Source of the DNA: Cystobacterineae bacterium | Lineage (GTDB): Bacteria; Myxococcota; Myxococcia; Myxococcales; Myxococcaceae | Reading direction: 5' to 3' | DNA length: 64,000 nt | Assembly (NCBI GenBank): GCA_009782175.1 | Contig: WRKR01000002.1 | Coordinates: forward strand, 62,001 to 126,000 | In this document: positions 44,401-53,513 of the stretch, piece after piece | Numbering within the stretch: position 1 is the first letter of the stretch | Layout of the letters: every line of letters begins with the position of its first letter | The notes under the pieces: model-generated | What the model was told of the DNA's origin: nothing | The model's database searches: none | The model's input: the letters and a program-made list of their open reading frames with translations, nothing else | Program-made: the position numbers and the translations under genes

Positions 44401-44450
44401 GGCCGTTTCAGGTTAAATGGAGCTTGGCAAGACGCAAAGTGTTGCGCGCA

Positions 44451-44791
44451 AGCTGTGCATAAACTGTCCAAAACTTGCGTGCGGCTTGTGCGCAAGTTGT
44501 GTGAAGGCTGCATATAAACGGTGCGCAGCTTGTGCATAAGCCTTTCATCAACCAAGGCAAAGCTGTTCAAAAACCCTGCGCAAACGAAGCGCGCCCTGGA
44601 ATAAGCTGTGCAAAAGTGGGGCAGAGGCTGTGCAAAAGCTATGCAAAAGCTATGCAAAAGCTATGCAAAAGTTGTACGAAAGTGGCTCGAGGCGTGTGTG
44701 CAGGCTGAACACGGTGCACAAGCTGTGTATAGGCCATGCACAAGCTGTGAAAAAACTGTGCATAAGGGCATAAACTGTGTGCAAGTTGTGG
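44451..44791. repeat. Degenerate repeat field with DnaA-box-like 9-mers
   Basis: About 340 bp of decayed 10-17-bp units with core GCTGTGCAWAA, including three exact copies of GCTATGCAAAA in a row (44638-44670). The nonamer TGTGCATAA (reverse TTATGCACA, fitting TTATNCACA) occurs at 44454, 44531 and 44757, all on one strand, and TGTGCAAAA occurs twice. No gene is seen in it. It lies between pth and tRNA-Gly. Confidence 0.75.
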
Positions 44792-45030: not shown

Positions 45031-45103
45031 GCGGTGGTAGCTCAGCTGGTAGAGCACGAGCTTCCCAAGCTCGGGGTCGCGGGTTCGATTCCCGTCCGCC
45101 GCT
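45031..45103 (+). tRNA. tRNA-Gly (anticodon CCC)
   Basis: A 73-nt cloverleaf. Acceptor GCGGTGG pairs with CCGCCGC, with a T discriminator. The D arm is GCTCAGCTGGTAGAGC. The anticodon arm CGAGC-TTCCCAA-GCTCG puts CCC at 34-36. The T arm is GCGGG-TTCGATT-CCCGT. CCA is not encoded. It marks the left border of the accessory region. Confidence 0.96.
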
Positions 45104-45124
45104 TCATGTCGAAGTTTCACAAAG

Positions 45125-45168
45125 CCCCACAAAGCCCTCAAAGCCTTGTGGGGTTTTGGTTTTTTTGG
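45125..45168 (+). terminator. Terminator after tRNA-Gly
   Basis: Stem CCCCACAA/TTGTGGGG with a 13-base loop, followed by TTTTGGTTTTTTT. An identical copy lies at 51487-51530 in the second module A. Confidence 0.85.
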
Positions 45169-45259
45169 AGGCTTTGGCGCATGGCCTGCAATCCCTAACG
45201 CTCGAATGAACCGGCGCGCTTTAGCGCGGCCGGGTTGAATGATTTATGAGGTCGGCGAT

Positions 45260-45478
45260 TCATTCATAGTCCGTCCATTCACTTGCACACAACCAATGCT
45301 CGGGAATTTCAGCCAAGGCAGACTCTGGAACAAGAAGATCCCAGTAATGCTCCCAGCCACCCGTATCATAGGTAACAATCGTAATCGCCGGGCCCCAGCG
45401 TTCCAAAAACTCTCGAACCTGATCGAATTCGGTTGAGTCTTCATCGTCATCAACAAAGATTGAGACCTTGCGCGACAT
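45260..45478 (-). CDS. 72-aa acidic protein, module A copy 1
   Basis: ATG 45478 stands seven bases behind AGGG. The product begins MSRKVSIFVDDDEDSTEFDQ and continues with VREFLERWGPAITIVTYDTGGWEHYWDLLVPESALAEIPEHWLC. It has no signal peptide and is strongly acidic. I recognise no family; small size and island location suggest an immunity-like or accessory protein, which is only a guess. It differs from its paralogue at 51622-51840 at about ten positions while size and start are kept, so both look like real genes. Confidence 0.65.
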   Translation of the reverse strand: MSRKVSIFVDDDEDSTEFDQVREFLERWGPAITIVTYDTGGWEHYWDLLVPESALAEIPEHWLCASEWTDYE

Positions 45479-49363: not shown

Positions 49364-49619
49364 GGCATCGTCGACACGGTCATGCGTTGGGGAGCATCTT
49401 CCAGATCGCATTCCAGACGCAGCTTTTGAAATTGGTCTTATCTCTGACATGGTTTTCGACTGCACGTTGAGCTGCCGAACAGACGCCAAGAACAATCTCC
49501 CTCTTCTGGCTTTCCTCGGCAGCCACGGCGATTTCTTTTAAAAGCTCTTCATGGAAACTTGCGAGTGCAGGACGCATCTGCGCTTCTTCTTCTGGCGTAT
49601 AGCGAAATTGGTGGGGCGC

Positions 49620-49787
49620 ATGTGTTTCAGCTCAACCTTCACCTTGTCAGATGGCTGTCACGCCGACTTCTCCTTGCCTCACTACCAGAAGATTGAACGT
49701 GGTGAACTCGACCCACGCCTTGCGACAATCAAACGTTTGGCCGATGCTTTTGGCATAACCATGTCAGAGCTTTTGAACGGGCTTTAA
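49620..49787 (+). pseudogene. Truncated XRE-family regulator, copy 1
   Basis: SLPHYQKIERGELDPRLATI followed by KRLADAFGITMSELLNGL is the second half of an XRE helix-turn-helix domain. The first helices are missing: the frame before it (MCFSSTFTLSDGCHADF) does not fit, and no ribosome binding site is seen. In copy 2 the same frame ends early after DAFWVSMS. Confidence 0.65.
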
Positions 49788-49886
49788 AATTTCTGGAGCG
49801 TTCCGGAGTAGAAAACCACTGCCAAAGCCCTGGAGACAGGCCAAAGCTACTTGCATCCCTTCAAAAAAGGCGCTATGGTTTTTATC

Positions 49887-50080
49887 AGGTGCTGAACACA
49901 CCTAGAAGCGGCTTTTCCCGCGCCCGTTAGCGTGGTTTTTTTGCGCCATTTTTATGGCCGGGTAGCGCGTCAGCCGAAAAAGAGCCCTTCGGGGCTGAGG
50001 CCTCGGGCCGTTCTTCTAGCGGTGTTCAAGTACCTGGCCTTCCCCCTGAACAAGGGAAGCGTCTTGAACACACTAGAAGG
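49887..50080 (+). ncRNA. C4-like antisense RNA with its target box, copy 1
   Basis: The 5' part has hairpin AGGTG-CTGAACA-CACCT then CTAGAAG (49903-49909). The middle has CTTCTAG (50013-50019) followed by GTGTTCAAG (50022-50030). Before the gene lie CTTGAACAC (50063-50071) and CTAGAAGGAG (50073-50082), the last overlapping the ribosome binding site. The middle boxes can thus pair either with the 5' boxes or with the target at the start of the 128-aa gene. This order (a1b1, b'a', a2b2) is that of the C4 antisense RNA of phages P1/P7 and the related P4 immunity RNA. A further stem, CTTCCC/GGGAAG (50039-50059), is kept by a paired change in copy 2. Confidence 0.7.
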
Positions 50081-50087
50081 AGACCAC

Positions 50088-50474
50088 ATGGCTACAAAAG
50101 AAACAGAAACACCCCTTAGGCACAATGAAGACGGTTTGCCTCTCTACCCCACCCGTTATGGCATGAGGACGGCGAAGGAAGCGGCAAACGAGTTGTTTGA
50201 AAAGTCACATGCACGGCTTCAATTTCTGGAGAATGTTTTTGCGACCATTCAGTTTGACGGATGCCTGCATTTGAACGCAGTGGAACAAAGGAGGCCAGAG
50301 AGCTTGCTCTCGCGCTTCACGGAGAGGAACGGAGCAGACGAGCGAAGCGGATGCGCCAACCATGGTTTGGCTGCCATTCTCGAAGACGTTTCCACGGAGC
50401 TCGGTGCCTTCCATGCCTACCCTATTGGTGAGGAATTGGCCCCCGGCAAGCTGGCAGAGGGGAGGCCACCTTAA
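50088..50474 (+). CDS. 128-aa protein behind a C4-like leader, copy 1
   Basis: ATG 50088 behind AAGGAGA. The product begins MATKETETPLRHNEDGLPLY and continues PTRYGMRTAKEAANELFEKS. The C-terminal half (TERNGADERSGCANHGLAAI) is encoded partly by GGAGCAGACGAGCGAAGCGG, a stretch also seen in the palindromic element at 10510-10530. No family is recognised. By position it corresponds to the C4-controlled genes of P1/P4-type prophages. About 95% identical to the protein at 53127-53513. Confidence 0.7.
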   Translation: MATKETETPLRHNEDGLPLYPTRYGMRTAKEAANELFEKSHARLQFLENVFATIQFDGCLHLNAVEQRRPESLLSRFTERNGADERSGCANHGLAAILEDVSTELGAFHAYPIGEELAPGKLAEGRPP

Positions 50475-50559
50475 TGGATAGGCTTCTTCCAAATGTCCCC
50501 CACGCACTGAGCGCCCAAACGAGCTAACAAACCGGAAAAGCCACCACCGTGTGGACCTG

Positions 50560-50595
50560 CCCTCGCTTTCATTTTTTTGAAGGCGGGGGTTTTTG
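50560..50595 (+). terminator. Terminator of module B, copy 1
   Basis: CCCTCGCTTTCA and TGAAGGCGGGGG form an imperfect stem around a T-rich loop, followed by TTTTTG. Confidence 0.75.
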
Positions 50596-50621
50596 TTTCC
50601 CGGACAAGAAAACACTCGCTC

Positions 50622-50649
50622 TTGACATGATATCATTTTGTGATATCAT
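50622..50649 (+). promoter_or_regulatory. hicAB promoter and operator
   Basis: TTGACA (50622-50627), 16 bases, TATCAT (50644-50649). Two TGATATCA palindromes (50628-50635 and 50641-50648) lie in the spacer and on the -10 box, a natural site for autorepression by HicB. Transcription would start within a few bases of the hicA GTG, so the mRNA is nearly leaderless. Confidence 0.8.
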
Positions 50650-50655
50650 AAGTGT

Positions 50656-50910
50656 GTGAACAACAAACACCGCAAAACCCTGCAGGCTGTTTTTGGCTTC
50701 CCCATGTCGGGAGTGGTGGAGTGGAAGGCCCTGGAGGCTTTGCTGGTGGCGGCGGGGGCCGAAATTGTTGAGGGGCGCGGTTCCCGCGTGCGCTTTGTTT
50801 GCGGCAAAGTTGTGGCGACTTTTCACCGGCCGCACCCGGGAAAGGACGCAAAACCCTATCAGGTACGAGACGCGCGGGCGTTTTTGGAAGCCATCGGAGT
50901 GACACCATGA
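50656..50910 (+). CDS. hicA: HicA-type mRNA interferase toxin
   Basis: 84 aa from GTG 50656. It fits the HicA subfamily with VEWKALEALLVAAGAEIVEGRGSRVRF and FHRPHPGKDAKPYQVRDARAFLEAIG, the dsRBD-like fold that degrades mRNA. This subfamily has GSRV where the classical one has GSHH, so the difference is not damage. Its TGA overlaps the hicB ATG (ATGA). Confidence 0.92.
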   Translation: MNNKHRKTLQAVFGFPMSGVVEWKALEALLVAAGAEIVEGRGSRVRFVCGKVVATFHRPHPGKDAKPYQVRDARAFLEAIGVTP

Positions 50911-51233
50911 AAACCATGCAGCACAAGGGCTATGCCGCCCGCATTGAATACAGCGACGAGGACAAATGCTTTGTCGGCCACATTGCCGGAATCCGCGACG
51001 TCGTGGGCTTTCACGGCGAAACCGTGGACGAGTTGCGTGCCGCCTTTGAGGAGGCCGTGGAGGACTATCTCGAAACCTGCGAGCGGGCAGGCTCGTCGCC
51101 CCAGCGCCCCTATTCCGGCAAAGTCATGCTTCGGCTCTCGCCGGAGTTGCACGCTGAAATTGCCATGAAGGCTGAAGCGAGCGGCAAGTCTCTGAACCAG
51201 TGGGCCACAGAAACGTTGGCCTTCGCTGAATGA
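50907..51233 (+). CDS. hicB: HicB-type antitoxin
   Basis: 108 aa. The degraded-RNase-H-like N-terminal domain (YAARIEYSDEDKCFVGHIAG, VVGFHGETVDELRAAFEEAV) neutralises HicA. The C-terminal ribbon-helix-helix part (LRLSPELHAEIAMKAEASGKSLNQWATETL) should bind the TGATATCA operator. It is complete and coupled to hicA. Confidence 0.93.
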   Translation: MKTMQHKGYAARIEYSDEDKCFVGHIAGIRDVVGFHGETVDELRAAFEEAVEDYLETCERAGSSPQRPYSGKVMLRLSPELHAEIAMKAEASGKSLNQWATETLAFAE

Positions 51234-51476
51234 GGACCGCCTTGCCATGCTTGCCCGCATGTACATTACCCAGCCTGGCGGTGTTTTTGTTTGGGTCCGC
51301 AGTTCGATCCCGTTTATCGGCTTGTTGCTCGGAATGGCCGGTGGCGGTAGGGTGCACTGGGTTCAAAAAACCACCTCCGGCGAGGACAGGTAAGCACAGG
51401 TAACTAAAAATTCGCTTCCCCAAGACGCTGACATATAAGAATTTATTTTCCAGTTCAAAGCCCGTCCGCGTTGAGT
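51234..51476. other. Spacer after hicAB with a tRNA-end remnant
   Basis: No gene is seen. At 51453-51469 the sequence GTTCAAAGCCCGTCCGC resembles the T arm and 3' end of tRNA-Gly (GTTCGATTCCCGTCCGC), immediately before module A copy 2. This is what an attachment-site remnant would look like. Confidence 0.5.
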
Positions 51477-52157
51477 TTTCACAAAGCCCCACAAAGCCCT
51501 CAAAGCCTTGTGGGGTTTTGGTTTTTTTGGAGGCTTTGGCGCATGGCCTGCAATCCCTAACGCTCGAATGAACCGGCGCGCTTTAGCGCGGCCGGGTTGA
51601 ATGCTTTATGAGGTCGGCGATTCATTCATCGTCCGTCCATTTACTTTCACACAACCAATGCTCGGGAATTTCAGCCAAGGCAGACTCTGGAACAAGAAGA
51701 TCCCAGTAGTGTTCCCAGCCACCCGACGAATAATTAACAATCGTAATCGCCGAGCCCCAGCGTGCCAAAAACTCTCGAACCTGATCGAATTCGGTTGAGT
51801 CTTCATCGTCCTCAACAAAGATTGAGACTTTGCGCGACATGGATAACCCTAACTATAAATAGACAAGAAAGCAGTGCCGTCTAACTTTCAAATATTGCGG
51901 ATTCTACCTGGAATTTCCGAGGAGACAAAGCTAAAACTCAGCGACCGGAAGGCAGTCTATGCTGTGACGCTCTTTCTTGAGACGCAGGGCGCAAGCCGGT
52001 TTCAGCGTGTCTAACCCACAGCACCTTGGAGAGAAGGTTGTCAACCGTGTTGGTTTTGTCATGGGCGAACCATATATTATGTCTTTCGAGAGGCATTCAG
52101 GGCGGAGGTTTGCGAAGGGTTTGACTCTAAGTTTGTTCAGCGGGTGTTGGCAGAGAA
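51477..52157. repeat. Module A, copy 2 (681 bp)
   Basis: Near-identical partner of 45115-45795, in the same orientation and 6362 bp away. It contains the same terminator (51487-51530), hairpin and 72-aa gene, then joins a VOC gene instead of the gene-tail fragment. Confidence 0.9.
51622..51840 (-). CDS. 72-aa acidic protein, module A copy 2
   Basis: Paralogue of the 45260-45478 product, beginning MSRKVSIFVEDDEDSTEFDQ. Changes cluster in the middle (LARWGSAITIVNYSSGGWEH versus LERWGPAITIVTYDTGGWEH) and at the end. No indels occur. The ATG is at 51840, behind AGGG-like GTTAGGGTTATCC. The function is unknown. Confidence 0.65.
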   Translation of the reverse strand: MSRKVSIFVEDDEDSTEFDQVREFLARWGSAITIVNYSSGGWEHYWDLLVPESALAEIPEHWLCESKWTDDE

Positions 52158-52165
52158 ATGCATTT

Positions 52166-52537
52166 TCAGGTTTCTGCCCGATGACAGACCGCCTCAATAT
52201 TGTGGCCGTCAGGGCCGATGACGAACGCTCCATAGTAGTTGGGATGATAGATTTCACGAACCCCCGGAGGGCCGTTGTCTTTTGCTCCAGCCTTGAGGGC
52301 AGCCTCATAGAATGCTTTGACTTGCGCTCGGCTCTCGGCGGCAAAGGCGATGTGCATTGGGTTTTGCGTTTGTGAATGCATGCCGAACCAAAACTCTGGT
52401 TTGCCGTTTTTTCCGAAGCCAGCCCAGCTTTCAATCTCTATGACGAGTGTAATGCCGAGGGGGGCGAGGGCTTGCGAAAAGAAGGCTTTGCTTCGAGCGT
52501 AGTCGCTCACAGCAAGGCCGATGTGGTCAATAATCAT
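52166..52537 (-). CDS. VOC-family (glyoxalase-fold) protein
   Basis: 123 aa with one vicinal-oxygen-chelate domain: MIIDHIGLAVSDYARSKAFF, PMHIAFAAESRAQVKAFYEA and YYGAFVIGPDGHNIEAVCH. The metal-site pattern (His 5, a His in MHIAF and a Glu in NIEAV) is kept. Members include glyoxalase I-like enzymes and drug-binding proteins; the substrate cannot be told. GGAG lies 11 bases upstream of the ATG. It is inserted between modules A2 and B2. Confidence 0.9.
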   Translation of the reverse strand: MIIDHIGLAVSDYARSKAFFSQALAPLGITLVIEIESWAGFGKNGKPEFWFGMHSQTQNPMHIAFAAESRAQVKAFYEAALKAGAKDNGPPGVREIYHPNYYGAFVIGPDGHNIEAVCHRAET

Positions 52538-52661
52538 GTGAATTTATCTCCAAAAACCCTAACTACATTATAGACAAGCTTTTTAAACGAAAGCAGTCTC
52601 TCCTAGCTCGCAAGCATTGTAAATGCTAGAATTCGTCGGACTGAAGGAACTGGTGGGGCGC

Positions 52662-52811
52662 ATGTGTTTCAGCTCAACCTTCACCTTTTCACATGGCTGT
52701 CACGCCGACTTCTCCTTGCCTCACTACCAGAAGATTGAACGTGGTGAACTCGACCCACGCCTTGCGACAATCAAACGTTTGGCCGATGCTTTTTGGGTGA
52801 GCATGTCATAG
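52662..52811 (+). pseudogene. Truncated XRE-family regulator, copy 2
   Basis: Same HTH half as copy 1 but the frame shifts after RLADAF, giving WVSMS and a TAG. The regulator is lost in both modules while the RNA leader is kept. Confidence 0.65.
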
Positions 52812-52928
52812 CTTTTGGATGGGCTTTAAAATTTCTGGAGCGTTCCGGAGTAGAAAACCACTGCCAAAGCCCTGGAGACAAGCCAAGGCCTCTTGCATCC
52901 CTTCAAAAAAGGCGCTATGGTTTTTATC

Positions 52929-53116
52929 AGGTGCTGAACACACCTAAGACAGCGGTTTTACCGCGCCCGACAGCGTGGCTTTTTTGCGCCATTTCTGGCC
53001 GGGTAGCGTGCAGTGATACAATACCCTTCGGGGAAAAGCTGCGGGCCGTCTGTCTTCGGTGTTCAAGTACCTGGCCTTCACCTTGAACAAGTGAAGTGTC
53101 TCCACCACTAAGACAG
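52929..53116 (+). ncRNA. C4-like antisense RNA with its target box, copy 2
   Basis: The 5' boxes CTGAACACAC and CTAAGACAG (52943-52951), the middle boxes CTGTCTTCG and GTGTTCAAG (53050-53068), and the target CTAAGACAGG (53108-53117) next to GGAGG. Compared with copy 1, all three b boxes changed together (CTAGAAG to CTAAGACAG). The hairpin next to the target is CTTCAC/GTGAAG here and CTTCCC/GGGAAG in copy 1, a compensatory change. An open frame (52793-53086, ending LRAVCLRCSSTWPSP) crosses it and resembles the Icd-like frames overlapping C4 in P1/P4-type prophages. Confidence 0.72.
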
Positions 53117-53126
53117 GAGGCCAGAA

Positions 53127-53513
53127 ATGGCTACGACAGAAACAGAAACACCCCTTAGGCACAATGAAGATGGTTTGCCCGTTTACCCCACCCGTTATGG
53201 CATGAGGACGGCGAAGGAAGTGGCAAACGAGTTGTTTGAAAAGCCACATGCAGGGCTTCAATTTCTGGAGAATGTTTTTGCGACCATTCAGTTTGACGGA
53301 TGCCTGCATTTGAACGCAGTGGAACGAAGGAGGCCAGAGAGCTTGCTCTCGCGCTTCACGGAGAGGAACGGAGCAGACGAGCGAAGCGGATGCGCCAACC
53401 ATGGTTTGGCTGCCATTCTCGAAGACGTTTCCACGGAGCTCGGTGCCTTCCATGCCTACCCTATTGGTGAGGAATTGGCCCCCGGCAAGCTGGCAGAGGG
53501 GAGGCCACCTTAA
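53127..53513 (+). CDS. 128-aa protein behind a C4-like leader, copy 2
   Basis: ATG 53127, seven bases behind GGAGG. It differs from the copy-1 product at only a handful of positions, mostly in the first half, while the C-terminal 60 residues are identical. The family is unknown. The binding site is partly inside the antisense target, so translation should depend on the RNA leader. Confidence 0.7.
   Translation: MATTETETPLRHNEDGLPVYPTRYGMRTAKEVANELFEKPHAGLQFLENVFATIQFDGCLHLNAVERRRPESLLSRFTERNGADERSGCANHGLAAILEDVSTELGAFHAYPIGEELAPGKLAEGRPP

Follow-up and report, generated by a model that had tools for sequence, protein, structure and literature searches.

The window analysed here is a stretch of 64,000 nt from Cystobacterineae bacterium (GCA_009782175.1, contig WRKR01000002.1, positions 62,001–126,000 of the forward strand). 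It carries two copies of a small module in which a leader with complementary boxes precedes the gene of a 128-aa protein. The features are listed below by position in the window.

49551..49787, +: partial Cro/CI-type helix-turn-helix ORF, 5' of module 1
49851..49879, +: promoter-like TTGCAT-17-TATGGT, copy 1, read from the sequence and not flagged in a stricter consensus scan; a similar sequence precedes other copies in the genus
49888..49908, +: 5' decoy region GGTGCTGAACACAC with 5' box CTAGAAG (49902–49908), copy 1; pairs with the antisense arm in the minimum-energy fold of the whole leader
49918..49942, +: intrinsic-terminator-like hairpin and T run between 5' box and RNA core, copy 1
49956..50047, +: sRNA-Xcc1-type RNA core, copy 1 (41.7 bits, below the gathering score)
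50013..50019, +: antisense loop box CTTCTAG, copy 1
50022..50030, +: second antisense (junction) box GTGTTCAAG, copy 1
50063..50079, +: target, copy 1, made of CTTGAACAC (50063–50071) and CTAGAAG (50073–50079), the latter abutting the Shine-Dalgarno GGAG
50088..50474, +: 128-aa orphan ORF, copy 1
50559..50590, +: terminator-like hairpin 3' of module 1
52623..52811: degenerate copy of the Cro/CI-type helix-turn-helix ORF, 5' of module 2
52893..52921, +: promoter-like TTGCAT-17-TATGGT, copy 2, read from the sequence and not flagged in the consensus scan
52930..52952, +: 5' decoy region with 5' box AAGACAG (52946–52952), copy 2
52961..52984, +: intrinsic-terminator-like hairpin and T run, copy 2
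52997..53084, +: sRNA-Xcc1 core, copy 2 (RF02221, 73.1 bits, above the gathering score)
53050..53056, +: antisense loop box CTGTCTT, copy 2
53059..53067, +: second antisense (junction) box GTGTTCAAG, copy 2, with its complement CTTGAACA at 53082–53089
53110..53116, +: target AAGACAG abutting the Shine-Dalgarno GGAGG, copy 2
53127..53513, +: 128-aa orphan ORF, copy 2

Boxes and proteins of the two copies

In each copy, a hairpin loop is complementary to both the 5' box and the box at the ribosome site, with 7/7 bases paired in either case. An earlier note had described paired leaders whose three boxes switched jointly, in a C4-type layout where an antisense loop stands between a 5' decoy box and a target that covers the ribosome-binding site, and both the boxes and the layout are found in the two leaders. 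Its 9-nt version of the copy 2 boxes (CTAAGACAG/CTGTCTTCG) takes in unpaired bases, the uninterrupted pairing being 7 nt. The promoter and the first 5' segment are identical between the copies and most of the ORF is 97–100% identical, whereas the intervening leader shows only 65–78% identity. The switch of boxes is thus localised.

The note also held that each RNA silences only its own gene. The loop/target runs agree with this (7 when a loop meets its own target, 4 when crossed), but the second box GTGTTCAAG is common to both RNAs and its complement is kept in mRNA 1, so that cross-binding of mRNA 1 by RNA 2 is predicted. The predicted binding energy is −27.8 kcal/mol, stronger than that of RNA 2 with its own mRNA (−21.4), and the pairing goes through the shared junction box rather than the 7-nt box over the ribosome site.

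The 128-aa protein has no match in Pfam, PHROG or NCBIfam and no phage or plasmid relative; in its own genome it matches only itself, the sister copy and a 30-residue fragment. Between the copies, the ORF differs by 3 purely synonymous and 6 amino-acid-changing codons, with no sign of purifying selection. The neighbouring ORFs that were tested belong to no phage gene families other than HicAB. These results agree with the note's description of a non-phage module with a new downstream protein. The novelty that the note expected is to be qualified, as multi-copy C4-homologous sRNAs with variable a' loops have been described in one Acinetobacter genome (PMC5320573).

Relationship to sRNA-Xcc1 and C4

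As BLAST of the leader gave nothing in phages and only a P. aeruginosa BRO-family leader in plasmids, relatives were sought by pattern and by covariance model. The Rfam C4 model (RF01695) does not match either leader at E<=10, while the P1 and P4 controls score 69–75 bits; membership in Rfam C4 is rejected. Both leaders match sRNA-Xcc1 instead. Copy 2 passes the threshold for membership (73.1 bits versus a gathering score of 53). Copy 1 reaches 41.7 bits (E 3e-5, local search), below the threshold, and a relative of its subtype (L017) scores 56.8 bits. To judge from its sequence, copy 1 is a divergent relative of sRNA-Xcc1 with the same layout as copy 2, although single-sequence folding of its core gives an inner fold that differs from the model structure. 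The box system is common to the family at large.

sRNA-Xcc1 is annotated in many bacteria. In Xanthomonas it has been reported as a discrete sRNA of about 100 nt on Northern blot, with mapped ends 88 nt apart (PMC2996969), and the title of Chen et al. 2011, as cited in PMC12444791, describes it as trans-acting and HrpG/HrpX-controlled. It has been treated so far as virulence-related and trans-acting, and its targets have been predicted across whole genomes and in plants as well (PMC2996969, PMC12189769). No description of antisense control of the adjacent gene by sRNA-Xcc1 was found in the literature searched, and this way of acting seems to have gone unnoticed so far.

The resemblance to the C4 RNA of P1/P7 extends to the box order (the P1 record annotates a1/b1-c4-a2/b2, the order of the boxes in the leaders), a loop that pairs with the ribosome site, a junction that pairs with a site upstream, the 5' copy of the target and, in the sRNA-Xcc1 family, the antirepressor targets. 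Both model structures consist of an outer stem and two hairpins, with an antisense loop in the second and an antisense junction. The specificity of P1 versus P7 C4 is carried by a few nucleotides (PMC5320573), as it would be in sRNA-Xcc1. The differences are that the covariance models do not cross-match, that sRNA-Xcc1 lies outside Rfam clan CL00128, and that its outer stem is shorter and its first hairpin carries the conserved AUACAAUACCC-GGGGAA motif. sRNA-Xcc1 would thus act in the manner of C4 even though the C4 model does not recognise it.

Other known systems share parts of this design. P4 CI RNA (seqA/seqC) and IsrK of Gifsy-1 likewise combine an upstream complementary region, an intrinsic terminator, an antisense RNA and a downstream target; control in P4 is by transcription termination (PMC4825925). 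The Group 1 C4-homologous sRNAs of Acinetobacter baumannii have many copies per genome, variable antisense loops and evidence of processing, but they match Rfam C4 and their loops are not tied to their own adjacent gene in the parts of PMC5320573 consulted. In the SymE/SymR system the antisense RNA, SymR, is encoded in cis (PMC12444791). SymE genes also directly follow relatives of sRNA-Xcc1, most of them with matching boxes; unlike SymR, sRNA-Xcc1 sits in the leader of the gene to be silenced. At these loci in other genomes, the sequences support the RNA as the putative antisense part of a type I toxin-antitoxin pattern.

Linked boxes in the genus and the family

Homologous modules were collected and tested for covariation, as the note had proposed, and linked box changes were found both in the genus and family-wide. 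The boxes were hand-anchored on the Shine-Dalgarno sequence, MAFFT alignment putting such short boxes in the wrong place, and Watson-Crick runs were scored, GU-allowed matching being too permissive to discriminate. In the genus of the window, 11 leaders with 10 distinct boxes pair their own loop and 5' box over 77/77 bases and their own loop and target over 74/77 (permuted means 42.7 and 42.3). None of 20,000 permutations reached either value, which excludes a box match by chance. One copy (L013) has kept the loop/5'-box pairing and lost 3 of the 7 target bases.

Among 100 family members, mostly from phages and with 65 distinct boxes, the loop matches its own start region over at least 6 nt in 95, versus a mean of 22.7 and a maximum of 37 in 10,000 permutations. 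The 5' box is matched in 75/91 (13% in others), and junction pairing is found in 84/100, compared to 17.5%. In most members the variable box directly adjoins the downstream gene's Shine-Dalgarno sequence. A replication on 51 loci found by covariance model gave 31 matches (permuted mean 7.7, maximum 19). The design of self-matched boxes therefore runs through the whole sRNA-Xcc1 family, mostly in viruses of bacteria.

Most of the 100 members lie directly upstream of antirepressor genes, and others are 5' of SymE toxins. The downstream product is a phrog_245 anti-repressor in 52/78 cases; Bro-N, P22_AR, KilA-N, AntA and Rha also occur, Ant, AntB, ORF6N, KilA-N and BRO are among the named cases, and SymE follows in 6/40. 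The 128-aa product, unlike those at most other loci of the family, has no antirepressor domain. An E. coli prophage carries isrK, C4 and Rha, then sRNA-Xcc1 and ORF6N, with matched boxes in each. Loci of other genomes with SymE or XAC0095 genes downstream served as stand-ins for the founding Xanthomonas campestris locus; at the XAC0095-type loci of one genome (G427) the target box is weak and the 5' box is kept.

Proposed mechanism and significance

With the anatomy, the family relationship, the linked changes over many loci and the target over the ribosome site all directly observed, we hold with good confidence that each leader is an sRNA-Xcc1-family RNA that acts in the manner of C4 from phage P1. 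Transcription would start just 5' of the 5' box and produce a leader with an embedded core of about 88–92 nt, an outer stem around two hairpins. By analogy with C4, the core may be excised by RNase P and then act in trans. The 7-nt loop of the second hairpin, aided by the second antisense stretch in the junction, would pair with the Shine-Dalgarno region of the next gene downstream and block its translation. The 5' box, a target copy beside an early terminator, could occupy the same loop, like a1/b1 in P1 and seqA in P4, and probably buffers or autoregulates the RNA. Since the loop changes in step with the 5' box and the target, each copy would be matched to its own gene.

The boxes could instead form an intramolecular switch in an unprocessed mRNA leader, the gene being on when the middle box pairs with the 5' box and off when it pairs with the ribosome-site box, with no free antisense RNA. 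The minimum-energy fold of both complete leaders joins the 5' region to the antisense arm, all the boxes share one leader, and linked changes would be expected here just as well. However, the core forms a compact, closed domain, and its relative in Xanthomonas was detected as a separate sRNA (PMC2996969). In P1 and P4, the RNAs with the corresponding layout work after excision, and a terminator-like site lies between the 5' box and the core in the leaders; we regard such a switch as unlikely. Rather less credible still is that the leaders are decayed remnants of prophage immunity, now without function, whose boxes match because the copies are recent. The truncated CI-type helix-turn-helix ORFs 5' of both modules, the orphan ORF without a signal of purifying selection and the truncated copies elsewhere are in line with decay. 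Yet the ten different boxes of the genus are still complementary over 74–77 of 77 bases; decay should have disrupted pairs, and common descent by itself would not change three sites in concert.

A role of the repeats as DNA elements (integron attC-like or transposon ends) rather than RNA regulators is very improbable. The modules are dispersed repeats, and sRNA-Xcc1 has been reported on Xanthomonas integron cassettes (PMC12444791), but a recombination site has no need of a variable box at the downstream Shine-Dalgarno sequence, where most members have it, and the genome has no integron integrase above the cut-off. An integron cassette was rejected for this genome, where TIGR02249 gave sub-threshold matches only, weak ones being present in all control genomes too.

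Phage immunity, in which antirepressors are under its control, is the probable origin of the C4-like antisense system; in this genome and its genus the units are small, self-contained and scattered. On balance we favour the broader view that the C4-type antisense RNAs include a second class that has gone unrecognised, namely sRNA-Xcc1. It would be a widespread modular silencer that can be re-coded and acts on the adjacent gene, whether this encodes a phage antirepressor, a SymE toxin or another small protein. Having moved out of phages in this lineage, it would have spread through the chromosome in units that each carry a code of their own, so that one genome holds several near-orthogonal RNA switches. 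What is new is the family-wide reinterpretation of sRNA-Xcc1, C4-type control itself being already known. The linked boxes point to the adjacent gene, usually a phage antirepressor or SymE, as the primary target, which suggests that other target predictions for the family should be revisited, and the dozens of natural boxes make a ready set of candidate orthogonal RNA switches.

The two modules and their surroundings

Copies 1 and 2 are modules made of a leader and a 128-aa ORF, and lie in the window among the following features:

44446-44788: tandem array of 11-base units (GCAAAAGCTAT)
45031-45103: tRNA-Gly gene
45108-45407 and 51470-51769: 300-nt direct repeat (94%), the first unit starting right after the tRNA-Gly gene, the second lying between the modules
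49551-49787 and 52623-52811: truncated Cro/CI-like helix-turn-helix, one upstream of each leader
~49851-50474: copy 1
50656-51233: HicA toxin/HicB antitoxin pair between the modules, preceded by the inverted repeat ATGATATCA-TTTTG-TGATATCAT
~52893-53513: copy 2

Each module opens with a promoter-like pair (TTGCAT-17-TATGGT, read from the sequence; a consensus scan did not flag it) and a 5' box. A terminator-like hairpin and its T run come next, then the RNA core (about 90 nt), a target box directly against the Shine-Dalgarno sequence, and the ORF. In the order 5'/loop/target, the 7-nt boxes read CTAGAAG/CTTCTAG/CTAGAAG (copy 1) and AAGACAG/CTGTCTT/AAGACAG (copy 2). In both copies the loop box is complementary to its two partners over its full length, which bears out the earlier note's claim that the three boxes switched together. 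Between the copies, the promoter and first 5' segment show no differences, and identity is 97-100% over most of the ORF but 65-78% in the leader that lies between these parts. The core interior also differs in type (AUACAAUACCC in copy 2, GAAAAANAGCC in copy 1), a difference that is more easily reconciled with a leader that was exchanged or replaced than with scattered point mutations.

The 128-aa protein is known from the source genome only. Its ORF differs between the copies by three synonymous and six amino-acid-changing codons, and thus gives no signal of purifying selection. Most other copies in the genus carry an ORF of 33-40 aa (MAD...NTGPP...QTS) after the leader, and the ending CAAACGAGYTA is retained 3' of the 128-aa ORF, which would be an insert or a replacement in an older short-ORF unit. 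Such a pattern of 300-nt repeats would not be surprising for an element that had integrated, or been duplicated, by way of the tRNA-Gly end. A helix-turn-helix stretch similar to those of the window adjoins a truncated leader (L004) on another contig, C29; the truncated helix-turn-helix may be what is left of a phage repressor beside an antisense leader.

Relation to sRNA-Xcc1 and C4

An Rfam scan of the whole window assigns copy 2 to sRNA-Xcc1 (RF02221, 73.1 bits). In a permissive scan, copy 1 matches the same family at 41.7 bits, under the gathering score, and neither leader gives a match to C4 (RF01695). In the phage P1 record the annotated order is a1, b1, c4, a2, b2: the second hairpin carries b' (CACTAAC) in its loop, the junction contains a' (CTGTCAA), and b2 lies directly against the icd ribosome site. 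The window leaders share this arrangement, with a loop in the second hairpin, a junction and a target at the ribosome site. Their earlier description as C4-like therefore holds for the box layout, but the Rfam match is to sRNA-Xcc1 and not to C4. The covariance models of C4 and sRNA-Xcc1 show no cross-match, and in Rfam sRNA-Xcc1 is placed outside the C4 clan.

In E. coli E2855 (locus L156 462-2282, within 1,179,868-1,182,933), an isrK/C4 leader and a Rha gene are directly followed by an sRNA-Xcc1 leader and an ORF6N gene, and the boxes are matched in both leaders. Two different antisense classes thus stand in tandem within one prophage. Judged from sequence, sRNA-Xcc1 appears to work like C4, because it shares the arrangement of P1 and because of the matched boxes in this tandem. 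For these leaders, we infer RNase P processing, action in trans, a block of translation and what the 5' box does. The P4 CI RNA with seqA and seqC is another model for this layout (PMC4825925).

In the source genome (2.7 Mb), sRNA-Xcc1 is matched seven times at E <= 0.001, and in two relatives of the same genus four times and once; the other 192 searched genomes of the phylum gave no match. Of 397 genomes sampled from the phylum to which an alphaproteobacterial hit belongs, 52 have matches, one of them with nine copies.

Box pairing compared with chance

The eleven genus leaders, which have ten different boxes, show 77/77 paired bases between loop and 5' box and 74/77 between loop and target; the three broken bases all come from L013, a copy in the genus whose target box has been lost. 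When partners were re-dealt among leaders, the means were 42.7 and 42.3, and none of 20,000 permutations reached the observed values. The covariation that the earlier note had proposed to look for in homologous modules is thus present. In L013 (1696-2636), three related-looking ORFs of ~100 aa follow the leader, without a confident family match.

A core-motif scan of viral contigs yielded at least 120 stretches. A set of 100 members was formed from viral-contig stretches, named records and the source genome, a recognisable start codon being required. The loop matched its own start region with a Watson-Crick run of at least 6 in 95/100 members, against a mean of 22.7 and a maximum of 37 in 10,000 permutations; the set has 65 distinct boxes. 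The 5' box was found upstream in 75/91 members (13% in others), and the junction box, a second antisense stretch, paired in 84/100 (17.5% when swapped). When the position of the target was fixed strictly by the Shine-Dalgarno sequence, a 6-mer match was found in 62/95, compared to 3.0% of swapped pairs. A replication set of 51 loci found by covariance model in other genomes, with start codons set by a simple rule and some probably wrong, gave 31 matches (permuted mean 7.7, maximum 19). As members share ancestry, none of these permutation counts is an exact probability, and the stronger argument is how many distinct boxes there are.

Downstream genes and specificity

The directly downstream products number 78, one being that of the window and the other 77 coming from viral contigs and genome records. 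Of these, 52 match PHROG anti-repressor family 245, and Pfam adds Bro-N, P22_AR, KilA-N, AntA, ORF6N and Rha. Named records are in line with this: leaders precede Ant in Haemophilus phage Aaphi23 and Rac-SA53, AntB in Stx phage P27, ORF6N in E. coli E2855 (after its sRNA-Xcc1 leader), KilA-N in Acinetobacter phage 4316 and BRO in a P. aeruginosa plasmid. SymE and Rha each account for 6/40 products in other genomes, and at five of the six SymE loci the matched box reaches 6 nt or more. XAC0095-family proteins are also found downstream, with the 5' box retained and a weak target match. One genome, G427, has nine sRNA-Xcc1 leaders (L192, L208-L215), several of them preceding such proteins; their loops are complementary to the 5' box and the target box is weak, and the real target may therefore be found at another place.

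Each RNA had been proposed to silence only its own gene. Across five module copies in the source genome, loop/target runs are 7 for own pairs and do not exceed 5 when pairs are crossed, in agreement with this proposal. However, the junction box GTGTTCAAG is identical in both window RNAs and its complement persists in mRNA 1. The duplex energy of RNA 1 is -31.5 kcal/mol on mRNA 1 and -14.9 kcal/mol on mRNA 2; that of RNA 2 is -21.4 kcal/mol on mRNA 2 and -27.8 kcal/mol on mRNA 1. On these predicted energies, RNA 1 should ignore mRNA 2, but RNA 2 may contact mRNA 1. In another genome (G558), four paralogous antirepressor modules have four different boxes, two of the modules being 2.8 kb apart; the side-by-side arrangement therefore recurs. 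The loop of locus L019, in genome G144, is less selective.

sRNA-Xcc1 was discovered in Xanthomonas as an 88-nt RNA (PMC2996969). It has been reported upstream of symE on the most widespread Xanthomonas integron cassette, for which "a divergent regulatory mechanism" was suggested (PMC12444791), and in Xylella it was taken to be a group of trans-acting RNAs, for which 212 targets were predicted (PMC12189769). No link of sRNA-Xcc1 to C4 or antirepressors was found in the literature searched, which covered few subscription journals. C4-homologous sRNAs present in several copies have been described in Acinetobacter, and a few bases are known to change specificity between P1 and P7 (PMC5320573). 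Against this background, the box system offers a useful reinterpretation of sRNA-Xcc1 at the level of the family.
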